This document shows positions 19,181 to 22,775 of a stretch of 23,397 bases of DNA, piece after piece. The stretch's first letter is position 1. Each line of letters starts with the position of its first letter. The notes below the pieces were generated by a model. It was not told where the DNA came from and did no database searches. It saw only the letters and a list, made by a program, of their open reading frames with translations. A program made the position numbers and the translations under genes. The DNA is from a virus, in IMG/VR virus record IMGVR_UViG_3300036780_000080, positions 1 through 23,397 of that record, one strand, 5' to 3'.

Positions 19181-19648
19181 TCACTCTCCCTCGTGCAGGC
19201 GCGGGCAGTCGTCCATCCCGCGCCAGTAGTTCTTGCACCCGTATCGCGGGCAGTCGCGGTCGCCGCAGGTGCCCGGCTCGTGACTCTCGCCCTTCGGCCG
19301 CGGCGTGCGCGGCCTGGTCCCGGCGCCCTTCTTGCGGGCACTGTCGCGGGCCCGCCGCTCGGCAGCGGCCTGCTTGCGCCGCGCCGCCTGCCGCTCCCTG
19401 GTGGCCCTCTTCTTGCGCTTCTTCTCGTCGGTCGCGGCCCGCCGCTTGCGGCTCTTGAAGTCGCTCGGCGCGTGGCAGGTGTGCCGTAGCCCGCGGTCCT
19501 GGTGGCACTTCGGGCACTCCCACCCGACCGGGTTGCGCAGCGTCGTGCGACCCCGGCGTCGCCTGCCCGGCGAGCACACGTGAGTACCGAGGCCGCGCGG
19601 CTTCCCGCACGCCCCGCAAAGGAAGGCCCCCGTCAGCTTCAACCCCAT
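19181..19648 (-). CDS. Basic protein with several zinc-finger-like Cys clusters
   Basis: ATG at 19648 starts a 155-residue product; an AAGGA lies about 12 bases upstream. Cys/His clusters occur at both ends: CGACG...HVC and CPKCHQ...HTCH in the first 60 residues, then CGDRDCPRYGC and a final DDCPRLH. The middle (about 65-110) is almost wholly Lys/Arg/Ala (KKRKKRATRERQAARRKQAA) and should form a long basic helix. This composition suggests nucleic-acid binding. The gene is the first after the GTGCCGCG repeat cluster, so binding to DNA there is an attractive but untested idea. Confidence 0.65.
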   Translation of the reverse strand: MGLKLTGAFLCGACGKPRGLGTHVCSPGRRRRGRTTLRNPVGWECPKCHQDRGLRHTCHAPSDFKSRKRRAATDEKKRKKRATRERQAARRKQAAAERRARDSARKKGAGTRPRTPRPKGESHEPGTCGDRDCPRYGCKNYWRGMDDCPRLHEGE

Positions 19649-19709: not shown

Positions 19710-19823
19710 CGCGGCACGCCCCGCGGCACGGATCGCGATGTGCCGCGCCCCGTGGCGTTTTCCCAGGTCAGCGCGTGCCGCGCCAGCGCGGCACATGTGC
19801 CGCGGCATCATGGCCGTGCCGCG
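19710..19823. repeat. Cluster of seven GTGCCGCG repeats, candidate clt/TRS transfer site
   Basis: Exact copies of the 8-mer lie at 19740-19747, 19775-19782, 19797-19804 and 19816-19823 (+) and at 19710-19717, 19722-19729 and 19787-19794 (-). Pairs form palindromes, including CGCGGCACATGTGCCGCG at 19787-19804 and a 20-bp one at 19775-19794. The last copy is inside the 3' end of the FtsK/TraB-like gene. In Streptomyces plasmids TraB binds 8-bp TRS repeats in the clt locus, often next to traB; the sequence differs, but the layout is the same. Elsewhere in the window I found only isolated copies. An operator for the downstream gene is the main alternative. Confidence 0.7.
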
Positions 19824-21919
19824 GCGGCTAGGTCGGCCTTCTTGCACCCCTTGCGGTTGGTGCCAGCACGGCCGGGAGGCCACCGGACATCGGTGCTCGG
19901 CACGCCCCGGCCGCGCGCCGCGGCGCTCACCGACTCGGTGGTCGCGTCCGCGTGCCGCATCGGCCACCGCTTCTCCAGCCGCTCGGCGGCCGTCTCCCAC
20001 CACAGCCCGGAGTCGCCTTCCATCACCGCCAGCAGGTCGGCGACGATGTCCGACTCCGGCTCGTCGAGCTCGTAGGCGGCGGCATCGCCGGACAGCGTGC
20101 GGTGCTTCTCCCGGAGCTTGCGCGCGGCGAGGCAGATCGCCTCGGCGTCTCCGCCGTCGGCCAGGTAGGTCCGCACGGTGGGCGCGTCGTCGGTGAGGCC
20201 GTACAGGATCCCGATGCCCTTGCGGTCGTCGCCAAGCGGCAGGCCGGAGGCGTCGTAGCCCTCGCCGTAGGACTCGTTCCCCATAATCGCCATGGACACG
20301 TCGCGCGTCGCGCACCGCAGCGCGAACCGGAGGATGTGGTTATCCCTGAACCGGTTGAACAGCCGCGTCATGTCCTGGCCGGACCCGACCCCTGACGGCT
20401 TCTGGGACAGGGACTCGATGATGACGCCCGCGGCCGGCCCGAGCGCCCCGATCCGCGACAGCACCGCCGCGAACTCCTTGCACTTCTTCTGGTCGTCCAG
20501 TTCGTAGTAGACCTGGAACTCTTCCATGACCAGGAGCTGGACGTGCAGGTCAGGACGCCGGTACAGCTTGAAGGTGAGCTTGCCTTCGGGGCACTCCGAC
20601 ACCGGCAGCTTGGCTAGTTCCTCGTTCACGTGCACGATGTGCCGGTCGATCTCGTACAGCGCGTCGAGGGCGCGCTGTACCGGGTCGCCGTCCTTCGTCG
20701 GGTGAGTGCCCTGGATGAACCGGTGCGCGACCATGCGGAGCGGCTGCCAGTCCTTCGACGCCTTCCCGTCGATCAGCGTGATGTCGACGAACGGGTCAAG
20801 CGCGGCGAACAGCGCGATCAGGCGCCCCGCGAAGGTCTTCCCGCGCCTCGGCTGCGCGCCGATCAGCAGTGAAGTCCACAGCAGGCAGAAGGCCGTCTTC
20901 TGCCCGAACTGGTCGAGGCCGAACGGGATCTTGTGCCAGATCGACCGCTGCTTGAGGTCGAGCAGCGGCGTCCGCCCGGCGGGCTCGGCGAGCGGGTCCG
21001 CGTCGAGGACGCGCAGCGTGTGACGCCGCTCGGACTTCCCGTCGCGGGTGGGGTACACCTGGCTGTCGAGCACGTCGAGGCCGGACGCGATCTTTGTCTT
21101 CGCGTTGACTACCTGCTCGAACGTGCCACCGAACGGCAGGTGGATGACGACCTGTGACCCCTTGTCGAGCGCGTCGCGGGACATCGTGGAGCCGAACGCG
21201 AGGTGGTCGGCGGGCTTCTTCGGGTCCGTCGAGCACAGGCCGGCCCGCTCGTAGGCGCGGACGATCGCGTCGGTGCTGATCTTCCGTATGAGTGGTGTCG
21301 TCACCGCGGACTGGACGATCGGCCGGTGCCTTGGCCTGCCCGCGTGGGCGAGCGGCGGCATGGCCGCCGCGGCGACGATGAGCCACGCCCACCAGGGGGC
21401 GAACGCTGCGACCAAGACGAACGTGAGCAGGATCGCGAACGCCTCAAGGCCGACCACGAAGCCCCGCACGCGGCGGGTCTTGCGGGCCGCGGCCAGCAGG
21501 GCGCGGTACTCAGGGGAGTTGCCCTCGACCACGGCCTTCGACCGCAGGTAGCCGTGCTCAGCCAGCCACCACCAGCCGACCTGCCGGCGGGTGACCTTGA
21601 CGGCGCCGGCGCACGCCCAGACGACGCCCCAGAACAGGTACCCGAGCAAGCGGATCAGGTGGAACAGGGTGTGGAAGCGGGCGGCGTCAGCGTGCTTGCC
21701 CGCGGTGCTCCTGATGCCCTTCCATGTGCGGAGGTGCTCGGGGACGATCAGCTTGCGTTCCCCGCCGAGAGAGGGGATCTCGATCCCGTCACCGTCGTGG
21801 ACGGGCTCGGGCTTCGGCGCGGTCTCGTCGAGGGCGTGCTCGAACGATGTGTCGCGGGGCACCAGGTGCAGCTCCGGCACCGCATCGTCGTCGTCGCCGG
21901 GGTGCAGCTGCGTCACCAT
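19808..21919 (-). CDS. FtsK/TraB-like DNA translocase
   Basis: I chose ATG 21919 (GGAGG 21931-21927 at 7 bases); an in-frame start 13 codons earlier exists. The product has 703 residues. An acidic, flexible N-terminus (1-70) is followed by membrane helices at about 89-107, 152-173 and 175-192. The motor domain follows: Walker A GAQPRRGKT (354-362), and a Walker B-like LLVMEEFQVY with Glu466/Glu467. The final 75 residues, with WETAAERLEKRWPMRHAD and a Lys/Arg-rich end, look like the winged-helix DNA-reading tail of FtsK/TraB. Such proteins pump double-stranded DNA between cells in mycelium. DUF2637 and GntR neighbours favour a conjugative TraB/TraSA-like role over cell division. Confidence 0.85.
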   Translation of the reverse strand: MVTQLHPGDDDDAVPELHLVPRDTSFEHALDETAPKPEPVHDGDGIEIPSLGGERKLIVPEHLRTWKGIRSTAGKHADAARFHTLFHLIRLLGYLFWGVVWACAGAVKVTRRQVGWWWLAEHGYLRSKAVVEGNSPEYRALLAAARKTRRVRGFVVGLEAFAILLTFVLVAAFAPWWAWLIVAAAAMPPLAHAGRPRHRPIVQSAVTTPLIRKISTDAIVRAYERAGLCSTDPKKPADHLAFGSTMSRDALDKGSQVVIHLPFGGTFEQVVNAKTKIASGLDVLDSQVYPTRDGKSERRHTLRVLDADPLAEPAGRTPLLDLKQRSIWHKIPFGLDQFGQKTAFCLLWTSLLIGAQPRRGKTFAGRLIALFAALDPFVDITLIDGKASKDWQPLRMVAHRFIQGTHPTKDGDPVQRALDALYEIDRHIVHVNEELAKLPVSECPEGKLTFKLYRRPDLHVQLLVMEEFQVYYELDDQKKCKEFAAVLSRIGALGPAAGVIIESLSQKPSGVGSGQDMTRLFNRFRDNHILRFALRCATRDVSMAIMGNESYGEGYDASGLPLGDDRKGIGILYGLTDDAPTVRTYLADGGDAEAICLAARKLREKHRTLSGDAAAYELDEPESDIVADLLAVMEGDSGLWWETAAERLEKRWPMRHADATTESVSAAARGRGVPSTDVRWPPGRAGTNRKGCKKADLAAAARP

Positions 21920-22098
21920 GCGAACCGCCTCCTGCACGGCTGGACGCCCCACCCGCACTCGGCCACCAGGATGGCGATGGACAGCCCGAGCGCCGCGAGG
22001 ATCACGACGATGACGGCCGCGGCGACCGCGAGCGCCAGGTGCACGCCAAGGAACGCCACGGCGGCCGCCAGGACGGCGAGCAGGGCACGCGCGATCAT
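21913..22098 (-). CDS. Small two-helix membrane protein (SpdA-like position)
   Basis: ATG (22098-22096) overlaps the TGA of the DUF2637 gene, and its end overlaps the translocase start by 7 bases. The 61-residue product is mostly hydrophobic (ALLAVLAAAVAFLGVHLALA, then VIVVILAALGLSIAILVAEC), giving two membrane helices and a short basic tail with two Cys (CGWGVQPCRRRFAW). Small membrane proteins next to traB-like genes are a hallmark of Streptomyces transfer operons. The specific role is unknown. Confidence 0.65.
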   Translation of the reverse strand: MIARALLAVLAAAVAFLGVHLALAVAAAVIVVILAALGLSIAILVAECGWGVQPCRRRFAW

Positions 22099-22775
22099 GA
22101 CCCGCCTCCGCTCAGCGCCTGGAGGATCTCGTCGCCCGGCTCGCCGTGCGCCGCGATGACCAGCTGGCGGACGGTGTCGTGGTGGACGTCGAACGCCGCC
22201 CCGATTCCCCGGTAAGAGGGATTCGCGCCCAGGCAGTTGCGCAGGTGCAGGTAGGCGTCAAGCAGCCGCTCGTCGCGGTCGTCCGCCACCCCGTGCCCGC
22301 ATCCGACAGTGACGACGGTGGCGGCCGGGACGGAGGGGGTGACACCGTCCCTGCCGCGCCTGACGAGCCCCGCGAGGGACTCAAGCGCGAGGGTGAACGC
22401 CAGTGCCGGCCACCCGTTGACCAGCCACTTCGGCACGTCGTGCGGGTTGCCCGCCGCCACGTTCAGGGCGAGGGTGACCACGATGCCGACACTCAGCGCC
22501 ACCATCGTCAGCCGCGGCCGGCCAAGGCCCGCGCGGGACGCGGCGAGCAGGTCGGCCGACGCGCCGAGGATGACGAGGTCCGCCAGGGCGGGCACGAGGT
22601 ACGACACCGGCGGCCGGGCGCCGGAGGCGTCCACCACGGCGAAGGCGTGGAAGTAGCTGGCGACCCCGGCGATAAGGGAGACGCCGCCAAGGGCCAGCCA
22701 GCCGACGACACGCGGCGCGCGGGCGGCGCGGCCTGGCGCTGTAGCGGCTGCTGGGGGGGAATCTGTAGGCTCCAT
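22095..22775 (-). CDS. DUF2637 / SpdB-family membrane protein with C-terminal HTH
   Basis: ATG (22775-22773) has CCAGGAGAGG upstream (22790-22781). The 226-residue product has four membrane helices at about 23-45 (GWLALGGVSLIAGVASYFHA), 56-80, 88-109 and 117-138, matching DUF2637 proteins, which are seen with FtsK/TraB in actinomycete plasmids and AICEs. The C-terminal 55 residues (DERLLDAYLHLRNCLGANPS, then YRGIGAAFDVHHDTVRQLVI) look like a helix-turn-helix, so it may bind DNA while membrane-bound. It heads the minus operon. Spread or transfer support is the known family context; the biochemical function is not known. Confidence 0.8.
   Translation of the reverse strand: MEPTDSPPAAATAPGRAARAPRVVGWLALGGVSLIAGVASYFHAFAVVDASGARPPVSYLVPALADLVILGASADLLAASRAGLGRPRLTMVALSVGIVVTLALNVAAGNPHDVPKWLVNGWPALAFTLALESLAGLVRRGRDGVTPSVPAATVVTVGCGHGVADDRDERLLDAYLHLRNCLGANPSYRGIGAAFDVHHDTVRQLVIAAHGEPGDEILQALSGGGS

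Follow-up and report, generated by a model that had tools for sequence, protein, structure and literature searches.

Translocase gene and carrier element

The window, by which we mean the whole stretch of 23,397 nucleotides analysed here, is itself a record of 23.4 kb from a virus collection; it has genes for a tape measure protein and an endolysin, and it encodes on its minus strand an FtsK/TraB-type DNA translocase of 716 AA (19808-21958). The protein matched the FtsK/SpoIIIE-like family phrog_1358 (E = 2.4e-13), and its structural model, which was of modest confidence, matched FtsK motor structures (E about 1e-6); a Pfam search of the translocase at 0.001 gave no match. The Walker A motif reads GAQPRRGKTF, and long hydrophobic helices near the N-terminus of the model are the probable membrane helices. 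The C-terminal domain, at about residues 638-716 (19811-20047, minus strand), has the secondary-structure order H-S-H-H-S-S, and the isolated C-terminal 118 residues were modelled with a pLDDT of 80 as helix-strand-helix-helix-strand-wing-strand, a topology that identifies the modelled domain as a winged helix. Winged-helix matches in a fold search with this domain were weak, and FtsK-gamma lay outside the top 50. The wing, at about residues 693-700 (19859-19882, minus strand), exceeds that of most AICE homologues by four residues, and the neighbouring wing columns are those that covary with the array motif in AICE relatives (see below). With a RecA-like motor containing a Walker A motif, predicted N-terminal membrane helices, and a C-terminal winged helix, the gene product is an AICE-type FtsK/TraB translocase.

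Upstream of the translocase lies a gene at 22095-22775 (minus strand), the positional counterpart of which in the related phage G002 weakly matches DUF2637, a family that also precedes the translocase in AICEs. On the other side, a small, Cys-rich, and very basic protein is encoded at 19181-19648 (minus strand), adjoining the array described below. A Cys-rich reading frame seems to be present behind the array at the AICE loci L040 and L041 as well, as in the phage, and this gene possibly belongs to the module.

The window record is probably a fragment of a longer genome. The two nearest relatives, G001 (51 kb, from a 51.4-kb record) and G002 (53 kb), have translocases 94% and 84% identical to that of the window. 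Both have genes for terminase, portal, tape measure, integrase, and O-like replication proteins; a major head protein was identified in G001 and a head maturation protease in G002. The two ends of G002 overlap by 99 bp, as those of a closed circle would. In the phage relatives, integrase and regulator genes adjoin the translocase-array module, the regulator being of the GntR type in G001 and of the HTH type in G002. A second, distant phage (G003) likewise carries the module, and phage structural genes are present in the window and in all three of these genomes. The carrier, with tail and lysis genes in the window and head and packaging genes in its relatives, is a temperate actinophage and not a plasmid. 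Because the relatives encode head and packaging genes and an integrase, the module belongs to temperate phages, and because the window and its relatives carry virion genes, the module is AICE-like while the element itself is a phage; an AICE would combine an integrase, a replication initiator, and tra with no virion genes. No translocase homologue was found by tblastn in 50,697 named phage records. The G001 record, which encodes a serine integrase (L013-L015), starts and ends with the identical 12 bp CCCTGGTCAGGG, possibly an attachment core.

The repeat array and its conservation

At the 3' end of the translocase gene lies a clt-like array of seven exact copies of the 8-mer GTGCCGCG within 114 bp (19710-19823), four on the plus and three on the minus strand. 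Copy 1 (19816-19823, plus) is within the final translocase codons, copies 2 (19797-19804, plus) and 3 (19787-19794, minus) pair to form the 18-bp palindrome CGCGGCACATGTGCCGCG, and copies 4 (19775-19782, plus), 5 (19740-19747, plus), 6 (19722-19729, minus), and 7 (19710-19717, minus) follow; read 5' to 3' on the translocase strand, the order is -,-,+,-,-,+,+. Our recount agreed with the first-pass annotation on the number, coordinates, and strands of these copies and on the occurrence of isolated copies only elsewhere, of which there are three in the 23.4-kb window. The density of GTGCCGCG was about 61 per kb inside the cluster, compared with an ordinary background of 0.10-0.21 per kb outside it in the window, G001, and G002. 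The copies fall in different reading frames, as had been noted; of greater weight is that only the first overlaps coding sequence, inside the last codons, and that the remaining six are non-coding, in the gap behind the gene.

At a G+C content of 71.6%, lone copies of GTGCCGCG are expected, and chance or compositional GC-rich repetition might be thought to have produced the cluster. As a scan statistic we used the maximum count of any 8-mer per 120-bp window, with Markov simulations as the null. Against the observed value of 7, simulations of the whole window gave 3-4 at order 2 (n = 150, with one value of 6) and 3-5 at order 4 (n = 150), and local simulations (n = 3000, 400 bp) reached a maximum of 5 copies. 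With the simulated maxima below 7 at both scales, a chance origin was rejected, and it is further contradicted by the conservation of the array in relatives and by its recurrence behind homologues; we regard its probability as negligible.

Conservation was assessed in a close set of five phage contigs, the window and L002, L003, L024, and L025, with translocases 75-94% identical to that of the window. The array was conserved in all four relatives, with copy 1 lost in L003. For the six intergenic copies, 47 of the 48 motif columns were invariant across the five contigs, compared with 62 of the 112 other columns, and no circular shift of the motif mask scored as well; between L025 and the window alone, 48/48 motif positions matched and 72/112 elsewhere. 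The 8-mer has been kept while its flanks drifted, which the first-pass annotation had proposed as a check, and this pattern indicates that the GTGCCGCG array is under selection. In a collection of 2.9 million viral contigs, from which the window's own record may be excluded, the 18-bp core CGCGGCACATGTGCCGCG occurred in only three contigs, all of them close relatives and all with the core adjoining the translocase gene. A looser pattern, GGTAGCGG...CGCTACC, was dropped from the reverse scan of viral contigs as too unspecific; the 18-bp core was specific.

Homologous arrays in AICEs

The array is not unique to the element in the window; homologous arrays occur in many AICEs. Among about 120 wider homologues of the translocase, the characterised bacterial ones reside in integrative conjugative elements; the translocases of the aligned AICE-like loci are about 46-51% identical to that of the window, and the examined loci carry Prim-Pol, DUF3631, or DUF3987 replication proteins and/or tyrosine integrases. 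When homologues above 430 bits (n = 121) were searched for a single 8-mer with at least 5 copies within -20 to +300 of the stop codon, 5-9 copies of one 8-mer were found behind 74 of them; the same criterion picked out 1 of 719 windows taken from gene bodies and 7 of 320 taken farther downstream. Some distant homologues showed no clear array. As a positive control, the same blind search behind pJV1 tra returned CCGCACA nine times, from +5 to +122 after the stop, which is the published pJV1 clt repeat as cited in PMC3583192. An array behind tra of pIJ101 was not recovered by the blind search, consistent with the placement of its clt near korB in the literature.

The AICE words are mainly GGTAGCGG or GGTCGCGG, at the same place behind the translocase, and GTGCCGCG was not seen as an array among the AICE homologues collected. 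These words have a common core, GTNNCG, and in 96 loci with at least 4 sites its two variable bases were AG (55 loci), CG (31), GC (5, the clade of the window), TC (3), AA (1), and TG (1). The GGTAGCGG and GGTCGCGG arrays also have a common layout, +4, -17, +25, -35, -47/48, +80/81, and +87/88, continuing at about -151 and -157 (the sign gives the strand and the number the bases after the stop). Because the positions and orientations of the sites coincide across different words, six to nine sites must have changed the same base together. At L004, L029, L027, L026, and L041, a longer wing insert of the DPDHFDSGKGQG type accompanies GGTAGCGC-like words, a combination that is a candidate for another specificity class.

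In a set of 78 homologues at greater distance (270-360 bits for most; loci L074-L113 and L183-L222) we found a striking array of CTAG behind the stop codon, with counts of 158, 145, and 109 in the first three 40-bp bins compared with 0.24 expected from gene bodies, an excess of hundreds-fold. The sites recur at positions 14, 20, 36, 42, 54, 85, and 92, mostly with 6-8 per locus, and the one locus checked has DUF2637, DUF3631, and integrase genes. The CTAG array is a candidate for the clt of a separate AICE clade.

Covariation of the word with the wing and exchange of the cassette

Of the 650 alignment columns, the best two predictors of AG versus CG words were wing columns 714 (0.64 bits) and 715 (0.86 bits), with mutual information of at most 0.46 among the 569 N-terminal and motor columns. 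Column 715 was Ala with GGTCGCGG in 28 of 28 cases and Val or Thr with GGTAGCGG in 44 of 44. The wing of L073, a GGTCGCGG-type translocase, has Lys-Ala, and those of L147 and L169 have Gln-Thr or Gln-Val. On a tree of the motor region, the CG motif class needs at least seven switches, and in seven independent contrasts column 715 followed the motif in five, opposed it in none, and was undecided in two (sign test, p = 0.06); two motor control columns, the first listed, followed the motif in about 1-2 contrasts. A distance-based partial Mantel test, which is crude, gave a weak and uninformative 0.16 (17/2000), and motor distance correlated at least as well. Since only one motif occurs in the clade of the window, the specificity residues of that clade are not mapped by covariation.

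For translocases with motors at least 85% identical, the word was the same in 138 of 140 pairs when the winged helices were at least 80% identical and in 21 of 46 pairs when they were less than 80% identical, the pairs being non-independent. In L040/L041 and L073/L147, identity was 93-100% in most motor bins and downstream, and 32-71% across the winged helix and the array. At the DNA level, L040 and L041 were 95-100% identical from -1560 to -420, 32-51% from -120 to +120, and 90-100% from +300 to +480, and their words are GTTCCGCG and GGTAGCGC, respectively, while L073 and L147 are two copies within one genome with different words. The identity dip was absent from the same-word pairs L163/L165, L118/L119, and L130/L131. 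These identity profiles indicate that the winged-helix end and the array were exchanged as one block in both different-word pairs, and the two appear to behave as a specificity cassette. In the wider family, the word changes together with its cognate winged helix.

The first-pass annotation had matched the site to the C-terminal winged helix of the translocase; within that domain the strongest covariation lay in the wing and not in the recognition helix alone. A one-residue D/N code, suspected from eight loci, was abandoned when D was found with both words in the larger set. In genome G875, L166 and L176/L178 are paralogous elements with motors 90-92% identical, different 8-mers, and a wing insertion, which suggests selection against cross-recognition between these paralogues. 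Genome G025 likewise holds a pair of AICEs with different words.

Function of the array

Based on these comparisons of sequence, the 114-bp cluster is very probably clt, the array of recognition and loading sites of the adjacent FtsK/TraB-type translocase. A site matched to the translocase had been proposed in the first-pass annotation, and its position, its conservation, the concerted switching of its words, the wing covariation, the cassette swaps, and the pJV1 control all strongly favor such a match. The C-terminal winged helix of each translocase subunit would read one GTGCCGCG, and several sites on the two strands would let a hexamer load and assemble on the double-stranded DNA of the element itself. 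The motor might then pump this DNA through a membrane from one hypha or hyphal compartment into another, in the way that Streptomyces plasmids and AICEs are transferred, and we infer that the (pro)phage DNA is transferred in double-stranded form.

Two other uses of such repeats were considered. The GntR and HTH regulators encoded nearby in G001 and G002 and the position of the gap ahead of the same-strand gene at 19181-19648 would suit an operator, at which a repressor of the GntR/KorSA-like or HTH kind would control tra or the small-protein genes. The array is, however, behind the tra gene and not before it, a promoter/terminator scan was negative, with no promoter-like site in the array (weak evidence in actinobacteria), and at least six loosely spaced copies on two strands are unusual for operators. 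The word also covaries with the translocase wing and is swapped jointly with the winged helix while the flanking DNA is unchanged, and the proven clt of pJV1 and pWTY27 are at the same place, all of which makes an operator improbable. We consider replication iterons, or an origin for a phage or AICE Rep/O-like protein, more improbable still: short words repeated on both strands do look iteron-like, and the phages have an O-like initiator and the AICEs RepAM/Prim-Pol, but the homologous arrays, invariably located behind the translocase, accompany unrelated replication genes (Prim-Pol, DUF3631, DUF3987/DnaB, and O-like), and the word tracks the translocase winged helix.

A further alternative has the clt-like recognition step in common with our preferred explanation and differs in purpose alone, the translocase-read site serving segregation of the prophage or plasmid into spores or hyphal compartments, or phage DNA entry, and not cell-to-cell transfer. 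In its favor, the phage that carries the module encodes a virion of its own, and FtsK/SpoIIIE relatives function in segregation. The closest homologues, however, are in AICEs, where the Tra proteins are transfer proteins (PMC3218068), and no feature specific to phages turned up in the module. We think this purpose unlikely, if deserving of some weight. No documentation of phage-genome transfer by such a system was found in the literature searched.

On the most far-reaching reading, a family of temperate actinophages carries an AICE-type TraB together with its own clt, a complete single-protein conjugation module, and the prophage or circular form may pass between hyphae as dsDNA without virions. 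In AICEs and phages alike, the winged helix and the array would form an exchangeable cassette with a readable wing-to-base code, probably preventing cross-mobilisation of co-resident elements. We hold this broader picture with as much doubt as conviction. From the arrays, clt words can be predicted for well over a hundred translocases of AICEs and phages, the relation of wing to word offers a testable rule of protein-DNA specificity, natural swaps of putative specificity cassettes occur between elements and in one case within one genome, and a conjugation-type module is placed inside temperate phages.

Comparison with known systems

Sites of the clt kind were previously known for a few Streptomyces plasmids. 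The clt/TRS of these plasmids (the 8-bp TRS of pSVH1, CCGCACA of pJV1, and TGACACC of pWTY27) are likewise words of 7-9 bp, overlapping or behind tra and cognate to an FtsK/TraB-type translocase, and the array in the window is such a clustered word. It differs from them in its word, its mixed orientations in a conserved order, and its phage carrier, and the translocase of the AICE relatives matches plasmid-borne FtsK/TraB proteins at only about 26-32%. In pWTY27, clt takes in 16 bp of traA together with the 159 bp behind it, and the TraA protein binds and protects this stretch (PMC3583192); reading of the 8-bp repeat has been assigned to helix alpha-3 of the pSVH1 TraB winged helix (Vogelmann et al. 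2011, as cited in PMC3583192).

The transfer module of AICEs (DUF2637, tra, and array, with RepAM/Prim-Pol and integrase) has a homologous translocase, the same logic of array layout, and a similar upstream gene, whereas phage tail and lysis genes accompany the module in the window, and head and packaging genes accompany it in the relatives. In the chromosomal systems, KOPS of FtsK and SRS of SpoIIIE, a hexameric dsDNA pump likewise reads an 8-bp word through its C-terminal winged helix. In contrast to KOPS and SRS, GTGCCGCG forms a local cluster on both strands, and a KOPS-like genome-wide polarity was rejected, the word being at background density elsewhere with no strand pattern. The kind of site described here is thus already known from clt/TRS; what is new is the motif, its carriage by phages, the apparent protein-DNA specificity code, and the exchange of the cassette.
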